NCBI GenBank assembly: GCA_017656135.1 | Contig: JACDOJ010000012.1 | Coordinates: forward strand, 1 to 42,640 | DNA length: 42,640 nucleotides | Source: Bacillota bacterium | GTDB taxonomy: Bacteria; Bacillota; UBA5301 | Direction: 5' to 3' | Shown: piece by piece, positions 21,125 to 29,613 of the stretch | Position numbering within the stretch: position 1 is the first letter of the stretch | Layout of the letters: each line of letters starts with the position of its first letter | Made by a program: the position numbers and the translations under genes | The notes under the pieces: model-generated | The model's database searches: none | Seen by the model: the letters and a program-made list of their open reading frames with translations, nothing else | Told to the model about the DNA's origin: nothing

Positions 21125-22231
21125 TTACAGGGTAATAAGGTCTCTGATTTTGGCTAAAGTCTTCTCCCCGATCCCTTTAACCTGCAGCAAGTCTTCAGGG
21201 GAGGTAAAAATACCGACTTTCAATCTGTATTCAATGATCCTTCTGGCCAAAGTCTCGCCGATACCGGGAAGCTTCTTCAGCTCCTCTACGGAGGCGGTGT
21301 TGATGTTGATCAGGTGGCTCTCAAGATCCCCGGTAGCCCCGATCTCCAGAAGGACCTGCTGGGAATTAATGATGGAATACTTACTGCCGTCGGTACGAAT
21401 GACAATGGTTCCCTGACGGTCAGTGCGTAAAATGGTGGCCCCGACTTCCCGCAACCTCTCTAGAGGCTCTTTGTGGGGATGGCCGTAGGGATTACCGGCG
21501 CCGCACATGATGACAGCTACTTGCGGACCCACTGCTTCCAGGAACTCCCGACTTGAGCTGGAGTGGCTCCCATGGTGGCCGACTTTGAGGACCTCTGCCG
21601 GTTCCAGATGACCCCCGGAGATCATCTCCAGTTCAGCCTCCTGGCCGGCATCCCCGGTGAAGAGAAAACCGACCTTACCATAACGTAAGAAGAGAACGAT
21701 GCTGGCCTCGTTGAGACTACCGTAGTCCATGATCTTTCGGGGACCGGTGGGCCAGAGGACAGTGAGGTCAACTTGGGGGGCCAAGTCAATTTTGTCTCCT
21801 GCTCGGGCCAGTTGAAAAGGTATGTTCTTGGCATCTAATTTTTTAAGGTAGTTTTCAAAAATTTTGGAGGTATGAATCTGCCCGGAATCATACACCTGTT
21901 TCACTTCAAAGGAGTCCAAAACCGCCAAGAGCCCGCCGATATGGTCAGCATGAGGATGAGTTCCAATTAAGACGTCAATCTGTTGAACCCCTTGGGCTTT
22001 AAGGTACTTAACAACATCCGGCCCGGCCCGGTGGTCACCGGCATCTATTAACATGGTCCGGCCTCCGGGAGTGAGAACCAAAATGCTGTCCCCTTGACCG
22101 ACGTCAATGAAGTGGACCTCCAGTTGGCCTGGCTCCGCCCCCCAGGCAACGCACTGACCGAAGAGGAGGAGAGTGAGAACCACCAGACTGAAGAGCAGAA
22201 CCCTATGCTTCAAAAGAAAATGTGTCGACAT
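21125..22231 (-). CDS. ComEC/Rec2-type metallo-beta-lactamase protein with HhH tail
   Basis: The 368-residue protein has a signal peptide (about residues 10-32), a metallo-beta-lactamase domain (about 36-290) and two helix-hairpin-helix units at the C-terminus (about 307-368; KLPGIGETLA and QVKGIGEKTLA). Metal ligands are visible in HPHADH (92-97), in FTGDAG and in GHHGSH. The domain matches the extracellular ComEC nuclease-like domain, and the tail matches the DNA-binding part of ComEA. A secreted DNA-processing enzyme is the natural reading (inference). Its start overlaps the phosphodiesterase gene by 22 bases, indicating translational coupling. Confidence 0.88.
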   Translation of the reverse strand: MSTHFLLKHRVLLFSLVVLTLLLFGQCVAWGAEPGQLEVHFIDVGQGDSILVLTPGGRTMLIDAGDHRAGPDVVKYLKAQGVQQIDVLIGTHPHADHIGGLLAVLDSFEVKQVYDSGQIHTSKIFENYLKKLDAKNIPFQLARAGDKIDLAPQVDLTVLWPTGPRKIMDYGSLNEASIVLFLRYGKVGFLFTGDAGQEAELEMISGGHLEPAEVLKVGHHGSHSSSSREFLEAVGPQVAVIMCGAGNPYGHPHKEPLERLREVGATILRTDRQGTIVIRTDGSKYSIINSQQVLLEIGATGDLESHLININTASVEELKKLPGIGETLARRIIEYRLKVGIFTSPEDLLQVKGIGEKTLAKIRDLITL

Positions 22232-22805: not shown

Positions 22806-23102
22806 ATGAAGAAAACGGTAATCATCCTGAGCATCTTGAGTCTTTTGTTGATGAGTTTTGGAGCCCTGGCTATGGCCGCCGGCTGCGCCGATTGCCATAG
22901 CAACATCGCCGAAGGACTGGGTGGTCCTCATAAGTCTCTCGGCACAACTACCGACTATGAGGCCTGCTTGAAGTGCCACAAGTCCGGAAAAATGGCCTTG
23001 GGACCCATCCTACACAAAGTTCACCTGGTGAACAACAAGGACTTTGATTGCAAAGCCTGCCACGGTGTCAAGGATGACGGTTCTATCTTCTTGGTCAAAT
23101 AA
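22806..23102 (+). CDS. Small trihaem cytochrome c
   Basis: The 98-residue precursor has a Sec signal peptide (residues 1-25) and a mature domain of about 73 residues with three CxxCH motifs: CADCH (27-31), CLKCH (54-58) and CKACH (82-86). His42, His70 and His73 are candidate distal ligands for bis-His haems. This is the scale of cytochrome c7/c3-like electron carriers, which shuttle electrons outside the membrane. ATG 22806 has a near-perfect AAGGAGGTGA. The gene stands alone with a terminator behind it. Confidence 0.9.
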   Translation: MKKTVIILSILSLLLMSFGALAMAAGCADCHSNIAEGLGGPHKSLGTTTDYEACLKCHKSGKMALGPILHKVHLVNNKDFDCKACHGVKDDGSIFLVK

Positions 23103-23169: not shown

Positions 23170-24270
23170 TTAGTCCCCAAAGCAGATACCCACCGATTTG
23201 GCAGCGTAGACCAGATCCCCCTCTGGGTCCACCCGTTTCATCTCCCTGACCGCTTCATCCAAATCCACGCTGTCGATGTTGGGAGTTCTTAGGCAAACCA
23301 TCCTACCAAACCGGCCTTCCACAACCAGCTTCACCGCTGCCGCTCCAAACCTGGTGGCCAAGATCCGGTCAAAGGCGGAGGGACTGCCTCCACGCTGGAG
23401 GTGGCCTAGTACCAAGGATCTGGTTTCCACGGCACACTCAGCGGCAATGTCCTGAGCCACCTTTTTACCGATCCCACCTAAGCGCACCGGGTCAAAGGTA
23501 TCGTTTACATACTCGCTGACAACCATGCTGCCCCCTTTGGGTGCCGCCCCTTCGGCTACCACCACGATACTGAATTTTTTGCCCTGTTCCGTCCGGCTCA
23601 TAATCTTGGCACAGACCTTGCTGAGATCATAGGGAATCTCCGGGATCAAGATGACGTCGGCTCCCCCGGCTAGACCGGCCTCCAGGGCGATCCACCCGGC
23701 ATAGCGGCCCATGACTTCCAAGACCATAACCCGGTGGTGGGATTCGGCGGTGGTGTGCAGCTTGTCCAAGGCCTCGGTGGCCGTATTGACGGCAGTATCA
23801 AAACCGAAGGTGACATCGGTGGCATTCAAGTCATTGTCTATGGTTTTAGGAACACCAACTATTTTTACACCCTGCTGGGCCAGCTCTCGGGCAACCTTTA
23901 GAGAGCCATCACCACCAATGACCACCAGTGCTTCGATGCCGTATTTGGCTAAGTTGTCCAGGATAATGGGGGTACAATCTCGCGGTCGGGTAACTCCGTT
24001 CTCATCCTTCCAAGGGTACTGAAAGGGGTTGGCTCGGTTGGTTGTGCCCAAGATCGTCCCACCGCGCGGCAGAATGCCTACAACATCAGCAGGGGTAAGG
24101 GGTTTAATCCAGCCATGGATCAATCCTTCAAAACCGTCGTTTATCCCCATTACCTCTAAATCGTAGCGGTTGACGGCAGTCTTAACCACTGCTCTGATGA
24201 CCGCATTCAGTCCCGGGCAGTCTCCGCCTCCAGTCAAAACTCCTATCCGCTTGACACCTTTGCCCATCAT
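23170..24270 (-). CDS. pfkA: 6-phosphofructokinase, G104/K124 (group III-like) type
   Basis: The 366-residue enzyme phosphorylates fructose 6-phosphate in glycolysis. Motifs are TGGGDCPGLN at the N-terminus, GGDGS (119-123), PKTIDND (141-147, with the catalytic Asp) and LGHLQRGGSPS. At the phosphate-donor site it has Gly in GGDG, as in ATP enzymes, but Lys in PKTIDND, as in PPi enzymes. This mixed signature is known in actinobacterial and clostridial PFKs, several of which use ATP. The donor should not be assumed. ATG 24270 has AGGAG 8 bases upstream; the GTG at 24279 lies inside that site. It follows the DUF2225 gene by 11 bases. Confidence 0.9.
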   Translation of the reverse strand: MMGKGVKRIGVLTGGGDCPGLNAVIRAVVKTAVNRYDLEVMGINDGFEGLIHGWIKPLTPADVVGILPRGGTILGTTNRANPFQYPWKDENGVTRPRDCTPIILDNLAKYGIEALVVIGGDGSLKVARELAQQGVKIVGVPKTIDNDLNATDVTFGFDTAVNTATEALDKLHTTAESHHRVMVLEVMGRYAGWIALEAGLAGGADVILIPEIPYDLSKVCAKIMSRTEQGKKFSIVVVAEGAAPKGGSMVVSEYVNDTFDPVRLGGIGKKVAQDIAAECAVETRSLVLGHLQRGGSPSAFDRILATRFGAAAVKLVVEGRFGRMVCLRTPNIDSVDLDEAVREMKRVDPEGDLVYAAKSVGICFGD

Positions 24271-24281
24271 AAAAAACACTC

Positions 24282-25271
24282 CTAACTGGCTGAAATATGT
24301 TTTCGCAAGGCTTCTTTGAGCTCAGCTTCGGTGGAAACCATGAGGTCCCGCGGGGGGATATCAATAACCAGGTCAAGTAAGGCCCTGACGACGCTGCTGG
24401 ATTCCAGGTCCGGCTCGCCACCCCACCAGCGCCCCACCTGTTCCAACCAGCGGACTTGATCGTGGTAAATACGGACTCTGGCCATCGACTTGATTCGTCG
24501 GGGGGTAGGGGTCGTGGTTTCCTCCACTGCCGACGCCGGTTCAGCCTGAGCGATAACTCCTGGCTCAGCCACTCGAGAGTCAATCTCTGATTCCGCTGAC
24601 TCTGTCGCCGGTTCCCGCCTGTTGGCCTCCCGGGCCAACTGCCACATCTCCCGGGCCAACCTCTTGGTACTTGGGCGAATATCCTTCATCCCCACAGCTC
24701 TGCTGAACCAAACTACGGCCTCTTGGTATTTCTCCAACCGCCGGTGTAGCTCGCCAATTAAGTAGGTGAGGTCAGAGAGGGCCATCTTGATCTCCCGTTC
24801 GTGGTCATAGGCACGAAGATAGGAGCTCAGCGCTGCCTCCAATAAGGCCCGTTCTTTTTCCCTCTCTTCCATCTCCCGGTAAAGCCAGGCCGTCTTTAAA
24901 TAGAGCCCACCTAAAACAGAATGGGGGGATTTGAGGGCTTGGGCACAGGTTATGGCCCGGAGATAACTCTCGACCGCCTGTACCAAAGTCCGCCTGCCGG
25001 TGAGGTTTACCGGCCCCAACTTCTCCAGTACCGGTTTCAGTTTTTTGGCATCCCCAGGTTTGAGACTATCAAAACTGCTCTTCGGTGCAGAGTAGCCGCA
25101 ACCAGGGCAAACCACAATCCCGTACCAATTAGGATTGCAGTTTCGATATTGGACCCGGAAATCGCTGTCCCGTTTCTCCACGATACAGAGAGAGTGGCGT
25201 ACCATGATTTGGGGAAAGGTGCTCTGGCAAATGGGGCAAACTACATCCTTTTCGTACAATACATCCGTCAT
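24282..25271 (-). CDS. DUF2225 protein with ribbon-helix-helix-like C-terminus
   Basis: The 329-residue protein begins with a DUF2225 zinc-ribbon region (CPIC at 12-15, Cys45, CPGC at 55-58). A TPR-like helical array follows (about 95-220; KYQEAVVWFSRAV), then a low-complexity acidic Thr/Pro linker (about 222-258). The C-terminal segment (262-305) has a short basic strand (ARVRIYHDQV), a Trp-rich helix and a SSVVRALLDLVIDI helix. This layout resembles ribbon-helix-helix DNA-binding domains and is not usual in DUF2225 proteins as I know them. ATG 25271 has AGAGGAG upstream. Its gene is immediately upstream of pfkA in the same operon. Function unknown. Confidence 0.75.
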   Translation of the reverse strand: MTDVLYEKDVVCPICQSTFPQIMVRHSLCIVEKRDSDFRVQYRNCNPNWYGIVVCPGCGYSAPKSSFDSLKPGDAKKLKPVLEKLGPVNLTGRRTLVQAVESYLRAITCAQALKSPHSVLGGLYLKTAWLYREMEEREKERALLEAALSSYLRAYDHEREIKMALSDLTYLIGELHRRLEKYQEAVVWFSRAVGMKDIRPSTKRLAREMWQLAREANRREPATESAESEIDSRVAEPGVIAQAEPASAVEETTTPTPRRIKSMARVRIYHDQVRWLEQVGRWWGGEPDLESSSVVRALLDLVIDIPPRDLMVSTEAELKEALRKHISAS

Positions 25272-25445
25272 ACAAAATCTTCTCCTCTAGTATCAGAGTT
25301 GTTCCAGTGAATCCAAGTATGAGCAATAAAACCCAAGGTGATCTGGACCAAAATTTACCTTATTTGCAGAATTCTTCACATTCCTAGGAATTCCCTGTTG
25401 AAGAAACTCCTGTGGTCCGAGACGAATAATGAGGGAGGATAGCAG

Positions 25446-25471
25446 TTTACAGTGTGGAATATTTCTGTAAA
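25446..25471. promoter_or_regulatory. Inverted repeat upstream of ACT-paaK-iorAB operon
   Basis: TTTACAG (25446-25452) and CTGTAAA (25465-25471) form a perfect 7-bp inverted repeat with a 12-base spacer, 31 bases before the first start codon. The centre-to-centre distance of 19 bases, close to two helical turns, fits a dimeric regulator. No clear -35/-10 pair could be assigned, so whether it acts as repressor or activator site is open. Confidence 0.5.
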
Positions 25472-25502: not shown

Positions 25503-25934
25503 ATGATGATTGCACGACAAATTTCGGTATTCCTGGAAAACCGGCCCGGACGATTGGCCGATGTGCTGATCCCCCTGGCCCAAGCAGGCCTAAACCTCAG
25601 GGCCATCTCAGTGGCTGACACCACTGACTTCGGCATCCTTCGGCTCATGGTCGACCAGCCGGAAAAAGCGGTGGCGGTTCTAAAAAAAGCCGGGATCACC
25701 TGCACCCTCAACGAAGTGATAGCAGTGGAGATTCCCAACACACCCGGTGCCCTGGCTGAGGTAGTTCAGTTATTAGCCAAAAAGTCCATCAACGTGAATT
25801 ACCTTTACCCCTTCTCCCGCAGCGCTTTAATCTTGCTGAAAACCAGCGATAATGAGCGGGCGGTAGAAGTCCTGAAGAGCGCCGGGTTTGCCTTAGTCGA
25901 TGAAACTAACCTCTACACGGAAGGAGGTCAGTAA
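25503..25934 (+). CDS. Tandem ACT-domain protein
   Basis: The 143-residue protein consists of two ACT domains (about residues 5-68 and 70-136), each starting with the ligand-binding turn: [10 protein letters not shown] and [13 protein letters not shown] domains bind amino acids. Small double-ACT proteins are commonly encoded next to PaaK and IorAB in anaerobes and are thought to sense aromatic or branched-chain amino acids. ATG 25503 has GGAG 5 bases upstream. It overlaps paaK by one base (TAATG). Confidence 0.88.
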
Positions 25935-27238
25935 TGATTTGGGATAAAAAGGAGCAACTTTCTCGGGAGGAGTACCGCTCGATCCAGTCCGAACGCTTGC
26001 AAAAGACGGTCCAGTATGCTTACGAGAGGGTCCCCTTTTACCGCCGGAAGATGCAGGAGTTAGGCCTCGAACCAGATGATATTAAGGGACTTGAAGACCT
26101 GGAAAAACTGCCGGTCACCAGTAAAGAAGACCTCAGACACAACTACCCCTTCGGACTCTTCGCCGTCCCCTTGGAGGATGTGGTCAGGCTCCACGCCTCC
26201 TCTGGCACCACCGGCAAGCCCATTGTTGTCGGTTATACCGAAAACGACATGGAAACCTGGACGGAACTGGTAGCCCGAATGGTGACCCAGGCCGGGGTAA
26301 CCCGGGGGGATGTAGCCCAGATCTGCTTCGGCTACGGTCTTTTCACTGGAGGCTTCGGCCTTCACTACGGTCTGGAACGAGTAGGTGCCACAGTCATCCC
26401 CGCCTCCTCCGGAAACACCGAGAAACAGTTGATGCTGATGGAAGACTTCGGTACCACTGTTCTGGTCAGTACCCCTTCTTACGCCCTGTACTTGGCAGAG
26501 GTCGCCGAGCGCATTGGTTTAGACCCGGTCAAGGACTTGAACGTCCGTTTAGGCTTATTCGGCGGAGAACCCTGGTCGGAGAGTATGCGCCAGGAGATTG
26601 AGAGCCGCTGGGGCATGACCGCCACAGACAACTACGGTCTCAGTGAAATAGGCGGCCCCGGATTCGCCGGTGAGTGTTCCTGCCGGTGCGGAATGCACAT
26701 CTCTGAGGATCACTTCCTGGTTGAGCTAGTTGACCCCGACACCCTGAAGCCGTTGCCCCCTGGCTCCAAAGGCGAGCTTTTGGTCACAACCTTGACCAAG
26801 GAAGCCATGCCGGTTATCCGCTACCGAACCAAGGACATCACCAGGCTCTTTTATGAGCCCTGTGCCTGCGGACGAACTACAGTTCGGATGGAGAAGGTCA
26901 CCGGACGTACAGATGACATGCTAATCATCAGAGGAGTCAACGTGTTCCCGTCTCAGATCGAAGCGGTTTTGATGGAAGTTCCCGGTGTTTCCCCCTTCTA
27001 CCAGTTGGTAGTGGAGAAAGACGGCTACCTCGATACCCTGGAAGTACAAGTGGAATTAGTACCAGAATATTTCACCGATAATTACGCCGACCTGGAAAGA
27101 TTAGAGCGATTGATCGAGAAGCAACTATATAAAGTCTTATCGGTGACGGCCAAAGTGAAATTGTTAGAGTCTGGTTCCATCGAACGGACCACCGGCAAAG
27201 CCAAACGGGTCATTGATAAACGGCCAAAACTGGCTTGA
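25934..27238 (+). CDS. paaK: Phenylacetate-CoA ligase (PaaK family)
   Basis: The 434-residue AMP-forming ligase activates aryl-acetates to their CoA thioesters. It has the phosphate loop SSGTTGKP (89-96), the [13 protein letters not shown] motif, a Cys-rich CSCRCGMH segment typical of PaaK, YRTKDIT and the C-terminal hinge with [21 protein letters not shown]. In this setting it may work in reverse, conserving ATP from aryl-acetyl-CoA made by IorAB from amino acids (inference from context). The ATG overlaps the ACT stop, and GGAGG lies just upstream. iorA follows 25 bases later. Confidence 0.93.
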
Positions 27239-27263
27239 CCATATTAATTAGGAGGTTACAGCT

Positions 27264-29003
27264 TTGAAAGTACTGCTCTCGGGTAATGAAGCCCTTGCCC
27301 GGGGTGCCTACGAAGCCAATGTCAAAGTGGCCACTGCGTATCCGGGCACACCCAGCACCGAAATTTTGGAGACAATGGTTAAGTATGAGGAAATTAAATC
27401 CCAGTGGGCTCCCAACGAAAAGGTGGCGCTGGAGGTGGCCATCGGGGCCTCCATGGCTGGCGTCCGAGCCCTGGTCGCCATGAAACACGTGGGCCTCAAT
27501 GTGGCCGCCGATCCGTGGATGACCTTAAGTTACACAGGAGTAGGCGGCGGCCTGGTTCTGGTCTCCGCTGACGACCCTGGGATGCACAGTTCCCAGAACG
27601 AACAGGATAACCGCTATTACGCCAAAATGGCCAAAGTACCGATCTTAGAGCCCTCCGACAGCCAAGAGGCCAAAGACTTCGTCGGGCTAGCCCTCCAGAT
27701 CAGCGAAGAGTTTGAGACACCGGTCCTCCTTCGGACCACCACGAGAATCTCCCACTCCAAGAGCCTGGTGGAACTGAAAGACCGCCAGTGGACCCCGCTG
27801 AAAAAATACGAAAAGGACATTGAAAAATGGGTTATGATTCCGGCCCATGGGCGCCTCCGCCACCTGGTGGTAGAAGCCAGACAGAAAGACCTGAGTGAGT
27901 GGATTTGGAAGAGCCGAATTAACCACTGGGAGATCAAAGACCGCTCCATAGGGATTATCACCTCGGGAGTCAGCTACCAGTACGTCAAAGAGGCTTTTCC
28001 GGAGGCCTCTATCCTGAAGCTGAGTATCATCTACCCCCTCTGCGAAAAGCAGATTCGCCTCTTTGCAGGCGAGGTGGAACGGCTCTATGTAGTGGAGGAA
28101 CTGGATCCCTTCTTAGAGGAGCAAATCAGGGCCTTAGGCATAGAGGTTACCGGCAAAGAGATTATACCGGAAACCGGAGAGCTCAGCACTGAAATTCTCC
28201 GGAAGGCCTTCTCCCCTAAAGAAGAGTCACTCTTCAAAAACAGGCCTAAACCCCTGGCCAAAAGGCCTCCGGTTCTCTGCGCCGGCTGTCCCCATCGGGC
28301 CAGTATCTACGGTCTCAAGCGATTGGGCTTAAAAGTTACTGGAGATATTGGCTGTTATACCTTGGGTGCCCTGCCGCCTCTTTCCGGCATGGACTCCACG
28401 GTCTGCATGGGTGCCAGCATCGGAATGGCTGAAGGCTTTACCCTAGGCAACGAGGAGTACGAAGGTAACACCGTGGCTGTCATCGGCGACTCCACTTTCC
28501 TACACACCGGCATCCAGGGCCTTTTGGACGCGGTTTACAACAATGTCAACATCACTGTGGTCATCTTGGACAACCGGACTACAGCCATGACCGGCCACCA
28601 GGAACACCCCGGCACAGGGAAAACCTTAAGAGGCGAGAAGACCAAGGCCGTTAACCTCTCCAGACTGGTGGAGGCCCTGGGGGTGGAAAAGGTCACCGTG
28701 GTTGACCCTATGGACCAGGAGAAATTCAAAAAGGCGGTGGAAGATTCCCTGGCTTATGAAGGTCCGGCCGTGGTCATCTCCCGGCGGCCCTGTATCCTGA
28801 AGGTTAAAAAATACTCTGAGCCCTACCAGGTAGATTCCACCAAATGTGATGGATGCCACTCCTGCATCCAAGTGGGTTGCCCGGCGATCTCCGTTACCGG
28901 CTGTCACGTAGCCATCAATCAGACTACCTGTGTCGGCTGTGGGCTCTGTGCCCAAGTCTGTCCGCAGCAAGCCATCAAGAAAGTAGGTGAAACCAGTGCC
29001 TAA
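27264..29003 (+). CDS. iorA: Indolepyruvate:ferredoxin oxidoreductase, alpha subunit
   Basis: The 579-residue subunit has the pyrimidine domain, a Rossmann-like middle, the TPP-binding domain (GDIGCYTLG and VIGDSTFLHTG followed by an LDN motif) and a C-terminal 2[4Fe-4S] ferredoxin domain with eight cysteines from about residue 528 on (CDGCHSC and CVGCGLC motifs). IorAB oxidatively decarboxylates aryl-pyruvates, from Trp, Phe and Tyr, to aryl-acetyl-CoA and reduces ferredoxin. The start is TTG 27264, with TAGGAGGT about 9 bases upstream. It overlaps iorB by 8 bases. Confidence 0.95.
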   Translation: MKVLLSGNEALARGAYEANVKVATAYPGTPSTEILETMVKYEEIKSQWAPNEKVALEVAIGASMAGVRALVAMKHVGLNVAADPWMTLSYTGVGGGLVLVSADDPGMHSSQNEQDNRYYAKMAKVPILEPSDSQEAKDFVGLALQISEEFETPVLLRTTTRISHSKSLVELKDRQWTPLKKYEKDIEKWVMIPAHGRLRHLVVEARQKDLSEWIWKSRINHWEIKDRSIGIITSGVSYQYVKEAFPEASILKLSIIYPLCEKQIRLFAGEVERLYVVEELDPFLEEQIRALGIEVTGKEIIPETGELSTEILRKAFSPKEESLFKNRPKPLAKRPPVLCAGCPHRASIYGLKRLGLKVTGDIGCYTLGALPPLSGMDSTVCMGASIGMAEGFTLGNEEYEGNTVAVIGDSTFLHTGIQGLLDAVYNNVNITVVILDNRTTAMTGHQEHPGTGKTLRGEKTKAVNLSRLVEALGVEKVTVVDPMDQEKFKKAVEDSLAYEGPAVVISRRPCILKVKKYSEPYQVDSTKCDGCHSCIQVGCPAISVTGCHVAINQTTCVGCGLCAQVCPQQAIKKVGETSA

Positions 29004-29613
29004 AGTCACTAATATAGCCCTGGCCGGGGTCGGCGGGCAAGGGATCATCCTCGCCGGTAACCTCCTAGCCCAAGCCGCCGCGCTCTCCGGGTACGATGTT
29101 AAGCTCGCCGAGGTTCACGGCATGGCCCAGCGGGGAGGGAGTGTCATCACCCAGGTCAGGTTTGGCGAAAAAGTCTACTCCCCCACTTTCGGCAAAGGCA
29201 GCGCAGACTACCTGGTCGCCTTTGAGCGTCTGGAAGCCCTGCGCCATCAAGATATCCTCGCTGATGACGGAGTACTCCTGCTTAGTGATACTATCATTCA
29301 GCCAATTACCACAGCCACCGGCAGCGCTCCCTACCCTAGGGACATCCTGGACCGGCTGAAAAAGAAGTGCCCCCGCTTCTACAGCTTCAGCGCCGAGTAC
29401 AAAGCGGAAAAACTGGGCAACCCTAAGGTAGCCAATGTCTTAATGCTGGGTGTCCTTTCCATCTTCTTGGAAGAGATCCTTGAAGCGGTCTGGGAAGAGG
29501 CTCTGGAATTGGTGGTGCCCCCTAAACACCTCGAGCTGAACCGACTGGCCTTTGCTGAAGGGAGAGCATTAGGAAACCAGCTGGCCCATAGCCAGAAAGT
29601 TAATTCCAACTAA
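28996..29613 (+). CDS. iorB: Indolepyruvate:ferredoxin oxidoreductase, beta subunit
   Basis: The 205-residue gamma-type subunit starts with the family motif GVGGQGIILAGNLL and continues with EVHGMAQRGGSVITQVR, both hallmarks of IorB and related 2-oxoacid oxidoreductase gamma domains. It pairs with IorA. GTG 28996 is preferred: AGGTGA lies 6 bases upstream, whereas the in-frame GTG at 28987 overlaps that site. Last gene of the ACT-paaK-iorAB operon. Confidence 0.94.
   Translation: MPKVTNIALAGVGGQGIILAGNLLAQAAALSGYDVKLAEVHGMAQRGGSVITQVRFGEKVYSPTFGKGSADYLVAFERLEALRHQDILADDGVLLLSDTIIQPITTATGSAPYPRDILDRLKKKCPRFYSFSAEYKAEKLGNPKVANVLMLGVLSIFLEEILEAVWEEALELVVPPKHLELNRLAFAEGRALGNQLAHSQKVNSN

Follow-up and report, generated by a model that had tools for sequence, protein, structure and literature searches.

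Ribbon-helix-helix (RHH) proteins bring paired strands into the major groove of DNA (PMC6514445, PMC3325190). In the RHH regulator AmrZ, DNA is read by the alternate strand residues K18, V20 and R22, and phosphates are contacted at the beginning of helix 2 (PMC3325190). A second relevant architecture is that of PcfF, in which a DNA-binding RHH part is joined to a stalk that recruits a protein partner (PMC6514445). For the DUF2225 family, the sole functional report found is a preprint, in which inactivation of the DUF2225 protein LEPBIa0550 of Leptospira biflexa results in a motility defect (PMC12236494). The family is widespread, being present in 118 of the 299 genomes of the phylum covered by a whole-protein search, yet it has almost no published function.

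The window analysed here, a stretch of 42,640 nucleotides, carries on its minus strand an open reading frame (24282..25271) that encodes, according to its translation, a protein of 329 amino acids composed of a DUF2225 part and a C-terminal tail. It is the single DUF2225 gene in the genome. Residues 5-212 (24636..25259, minus strand) match DUF2225 (PF09986) with an E-value of 8.3e-54 and 183 bits against a Pfam cut-off of 21. This domain starts with a zinc-ribbon-like CPxC...CPxC N-terminus, followed by TPR-like helices. Paired CPxC zinc-ribbon cysteines are typical of DUF2225, and the four residues concerned, C12, C15, C55 and C58, are invariant in all 15 tailed homologues. The TPR matches in the middle of the body are weak and below the Pfam cut-off; the Foldseek search with the full-length model listed TPR proteins alone, a search by which the tail was barely probed. 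In the full-length AlphaFold model, built with 15 homologues, the body is confident, with pLDDT above 90 in most blocks up to residue 220, while residues 222-259 fall below 50. Low pLDDT and an excess of acidic residues delimit a disordered linker at residues 222-257 (24501..24608, minus strand): the 38 positions from 220 to 257 hold nine D/E and one K/R. The initial annotation had described a tail attached by an acidic linker to a zinc-TPR protein. The residue counts bear out the acidic linker, and the DUF2225 match, the invariant cysteines and the TPR folds fit a zinc-ribbon-like and TPR-like body.

The 117 residues that follow position 212 have no match in Pfam or NCBIfam, and in the whole-protein search of the phylum a minority of the DUF2225 matches reach the end of the window protein. 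Of 398 genomes, 20 were matched by a profile built from 15 tails; the match in one of them, G012 (E 0.0027 in a frame of 468 amino acids), was taken as chance and this genome was rejected as a tail carrier. Two more tail searches around the tailed genomes were positive in 5 of 10 and 21 of 63 cases. The tail model was applied to 52 loci, which yielded 36 distinct tails, and a scan of named genomes, with 80 loci kept and 21 of them tailed, added four new ones (L177, L178, L189, L190), giving 40 distinct tails in total. The conserved tail domain corresponds to residues 258-329 (24285..24500, minus strand), as delimited by the 36 aligned tails and the four additional ones. It is also recovered independently, since a model based on 32 tails that do not belong to the window's class detects the window tail with an E-value of 9.3e-12 among 512 sequences. 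Among the carriers known by name are Heliobacterium chlorum, Heliobacterium mobile, Heliophilum fasciatum, Syntrophomonas palmitatica and a Thermincola MAG. A DUF2225 domain precedes every tail found. In the single-contig genome G302 (L043, approximately 1500-1760 on the minus strand; L082, 4822-5043) the tail lies in another frame than DUF2225, immediately behind it and next to nine consecutive A; the gene may be split, or the break may stem from slippage or from an error in the sequence.

A maximum-likelihood tree built on 111 DUF2225 domains places all 40 tailed rows on one side of one branch (support 99/92), the split between tailed and tailless rows is present in 200 of 200 bootstrap trees, and none of 500 label shuffles gave a value as low. 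The 111 rows leave out two long-branch sequences, L214 and L234, with no tail detected in either; both fell among the tailed rows in an earlier tree, in which eight tailed loci were mislabelled, and their inclusion would require extra changes. The tail is therefore not a chance likeness in one sequence, a reading ruled out by the 40 distinct tails of one clade, but a conserved unit confined to a single DUF2225 clade, which would have acquired it once. This clade includes Heliobacteriaceae, Syntrophomonadaceae and Thermincola-type bacteria. Scanning the tails against Pfam, NCBIfam and PHROGs returned no consistent family; the tail is a real domain that none of the three collections names. Unlike the window protein, the products of 59 of the 80 related DUF2225 loci lack it and end at most 18 residues past the DUF2225 match, among them those of Paenibacillus, Brevibacillus, Bacillaceae and one Spirochaetia genome. 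With 71 of the 111 tree rows also tailless, the conversion of DUF2225 into a DNA-binding adaptor suggested in the initial annotation does not extend to the family as a whole, as most of its members are without the tail. Separately, other DUF2225 matches, for example in G017, G101, G134, G211 and G093, lie in tailless open frames of 398-573 amino acids, and the tail model found no match in the first four of these; additional C-terminal extensions may therefore exist in the family.

As regards its fold, the tail begins with a putative β-strand at residues 262-269 (24465..24488, minus strand), recognized by hydrophobic alternation, whose outward positions 263, 265 and 267 are M, R and R in the window. 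The full-length AlphaFold model shows coil over residues 260-269 and then helices at 270-279, 291-304, 307-310 and 315-328. The first of these, helix A (HDQVRWLEQV, 24435..24464), and the second, helix B (SSSVVRALLDLVID, 24360..24401), would complete an RHH unit, and helix C at 315-328 (24288..24329) extends beyond the minimal RHH; all three are on the minus strand. The segment SSVVRALLDLVIDI, with which the helices end in the initial annotation, was found at residues 292-305, as claimed there. Positions 262, 264, 266 and 268 are hydrophobic in 30, 35, 31 and 36 of the 36 tails, respectively, and the outward positions 263, 265 and 267 in just 3, 14 and 1. The best periodicity of residues 262-268 is 180 degrees, the shuffle fraction for the β-moment is 0.014, and the helix moment of the same segment over the 36 tails is 0.17, with a shuffle fraction of 0.60. 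Within the helices, Q272 is present in 35 of 36 tails, W275 in 34, R/K at position 296 in all 36, and E315 and L318 in 35 each.

The same reading emerges from the comparison of profiles. Five RHH templates were tried (RHH_1, RHH_3, both together, a non-redundant mix, and Arc), of which RHH_3 gave the best result: in hhalign, the 36 tails score 24.1 against 15 RHH_3 members, with an E-value of 1.6e-4 for one comparison. The strand and both helices, A and B, fall into a single register, the loop being six residues longer in the tail. Against 23 non-redundant RHH sequences (RHH_1, RHH_3 and Arc) the score is 20.9. Neither of these values was reached by any decoy; the decoys were 86 windows taken from unrelated gene families, a set reduced from 94 after removal of eight windows that came from the DUF2225 cluster, the top-scoring of which covered the tail; among 500 random unrelated pairs, the top score was 18.0. 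True RHH pairs score 28.4-74.7 on this scale. The TetR_N control, from which locus L161 was left out owing to stops in the assumed frame, gave 14.2 over 16 aligned columns, and a TetR-type helix-turn-helix is not supported. None of 100 column shuffles reached 24.1, the reversed alignment scored 10.3, and the signal was kept without the heliobacterial tails (23.2) or without the window's class (22.3).

The RHH models of Pfam and NCBIfam match none of the 36 tails, and with the RHH_1 (PF01402), RHH_3 (PF12651) and Arc (PF03869) HMMs no tail was matched at E-values up to 10, which means that the tail is not filed under those Pfam families. Taken alone, the RHH_1 members score 14.9, a value equalled or exceeded by 4 of 86 decoys, and the Arc members 9.5, with 40 of 86 decoys as high; neither amounts to a signal, and the RHH signal consequently rests on RHH_3-type sequences. 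On their own, the four tails from the class of the window score 9.3, which is noise, so that the window tail is tied to RHH only via its relatives. Searching the tail profile against PDB sequences matched no RHH chain. The 15-tail profile gave a weak and unrelated match to YvdT (E 0.096), and the 36-tail profile one to an engineered I-CreI-type endonuclease (E 0.0012) that covers 38 profile positions in the helix region and is not read as homology.

Taking the strand alternation together with the calibrated profile comparison, an RHH-like fold is the best available reading of the tail, moderately supported and probably correct. The previously proposed RHH-like character of residues 262-305 is thus partly supported, on these two counts, and is not reproduced by the monomer model of the isolated tail (AlphaFold, 15 sequences), where a helix over tail residues 4-28 takes in the strand, with pLDDT of 56-69 there. 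Ribbon strands form only in the dimer, and a monomer model is therefore probably a poor test. Foldseek and VIA searches with this low-confidence monomer returned no significant match and no RHH chain, which is not counter-evidence.

For the function of such a fold, the following arrangement is proposed. The tail would pair with a second copy through its strand and helices; the paired strands, with 263, 265 and 267 facing outward (R265 and R267 in the window), together with a basic arm consisting in the window of R258, R259 and K261, would enter the DNA major groove. Two zinc-ribbon/TPR bodies would thus be tethered to the tail dimer by flexible acidic linkers, and each TPR body could bind a partner protein while the ribbon reads DNA, bringing that partner to DNA sites. 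Both dimer formation and DNA binding are steps that we infer. Across the tails, a basic residue occupies positions 258, 259 and 291 in 75, 75 and 83 per cent of cases, although residue 291 of the window is S and not K/R. The outward strand positions vary: in other tails 263 is mostly Q/K, 265 is mixed and 267 is H/S/N, and residues such as P, F or M sometimes occur, so that there is no conserved DNA-reading set. The prediction that the tail binds DNA stands at about even chances, and the combination of an RHH fold with DNA binding, the best explanation of the data as a whole, is likewise evenly poised.

Two other interpretations of the tail compete with this one. It may be a different small helical domain, with three or four helices and only an incidental RHH likeness. 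The isolated-tail model, all helical at a mean pLDDT of 73.6, is consistent with such a domain, as are the lack of any match to a curated RHH family and the RHH_1 and Arc profiles without signal. However, the two-residue alternation over 262-268 in 36 tails misfits an amphipathic helix, the full-length model breaks the helix before residue 270, and the RHH_3 match stands in register above every decoy; this interpretation is accordingly considered unlikely. The other accepts the RHH fold and assigns it to the pairing of DUF2225 proteins or to docking on another protein, with no DNA binding. What is conserved in the tail is mainly its core and helix positions (Y269, Q272, W275, L276, R296, D300, E315 and L318), the outward strand being variable, and the DUF2225 body is a TPR-like scaffold; the genes neighbouring the homologues differ between families, with no common target gene evident. 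All of these features would suit a pairing role. Against it, positions 263 (Q/K/R) and 267 (H/S/N/T/R/Q) are mostly polar and a basic arm precedes the strand, as expected for a DNA-facing ribbon, and residues that determine specificity may vary freely between lineages. The variable outward residues fit lineage-specific sites and a pure pairing role equally. Such a role without DNA is regarded as a minority possibility, rather improbable.

A further interpretation, in which the protein specifically regulates the operon it shares with pfkA and thereby glycolysis, depends on the surroundings of the gene. The next gene downstream is pfkA (23170..24279, minus strand), encoding 6-phosphofructokinase (PF00365, E 2.4e-114). 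Its probable ATG at 24270 is separated by a gap of 11 nt from the DUF2225 stop (24282-24284), which a GGAG overlaps, and from this layout the two genes are presumably transcribed as one unit. Moreover, pfkA adjoins the gene in all four DUF2225-bearing genomes of the window's class (G000, G001, G002 and G004). In the other 15 tailed genomes, it was not found within 7-16 kb of the gene in any case, although the tail is kept. Adjacency to pfkA, the layout behind the co-transcription put forward by the initial annotation, is hence confined to the window's class among these genomes, and pfkA as a general partner is rejected. The neighbours in the other tailed genomes are varied and often include QueC, a QueD-type 6-pyruvoyl tetrahydropterin synthase, GTP cyclohydrolase I, SurE or a Fur regulator (for example at L093, L089 and L083), together with a radical SAM protein that we take to be of the QueE type. 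The upstream region offers one feature in favour of an operon regulator, a 26-nt block (25434-25459) that lies between the divergent DUF2225 and ACT-domain genes and is shared with two related genera; genome-wide, it has one exact occurrence, its own, and two with three mismatches, versus two for the reversed control. The divergent ACT/AMP-ligase genes are closer to this block than the start of DUF2225 is; the block may be their promoter and tells little about the DUF2225 protein. The intergenic stretch contains no direct repeats and one weak, overlapping palindrome. Control of pfkA by this protein is therefore judged very unlikely.

Other features surround this locus in the window. On the plus strand, 25503-29613 spans an ACT-domain pair protein, an AMP-binding ligase and, after these, two open reading frames that read like indolepyruvate ferredoxin oxidoreductase subunits. 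Also on the plus strand, an open reading frame of 98 amino acids (22806-23102), whose start is signal-like and which holds several CxxCH motifs, reads like a small secreted multihaem cytochrome. On the minus strand, one of 368 amino acids (21125-22231) reads like a ComEC-type metallo-β-lactamase part fused to a ComEA-like helix-hairpin-helix end.

The tail gives DUF2225, whose function is unknown, a new domain layout. If it does bind DNA, it would provide the first handle on what one branch of DUF2225 does. In its full form, the proposal is that this DUF2225 clade, by gaining an RHH domain, turned into DNA-binding adaptors of a new type, with the zinc-ribbon/TPR scaffold recruiting a partner to sites chosen by the paired tails; we consider this extended version tentative, and somewhat doubtful as a whole. 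No DUF2225 protein with an RHH tail is named among the papers listed by a literature search of open-access main texts.

Compared with the described systems, LEPBIa0550-type DUF2225 proteins have in common with the window protein the zinc-ribbon/TPR body of residues 5-212. No motility genes lie close to the window gene in the stretch read. On the side of the tail, the CopG-like RHH_3 family aligns over the putative strand and helices A and B, and differs in its shorter loop; the tail has in addition an extra C-terminal helix, has no HMMER match to the family and is placed C-terminally on a body of 200 residues. The likeness to AmrZ is one of position: residues 263, 265 and 267 and the mostly basic 291 occupy the places of the residues described for that regulator (PMC3325190), and, by the same comparison, the basic positions 258, 259 and 291 fit RHH phosphate contacts. 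It differs in that the matching tail residues vary between lineages. Finally, the layout proposed for the window protein, a DNA-binding part joined to a part for a partner, is that of PcfF; the DNA-binding part is N-terminal in PcfF and would be C-terminal in the window protein, where the partner part would be the TPR body.
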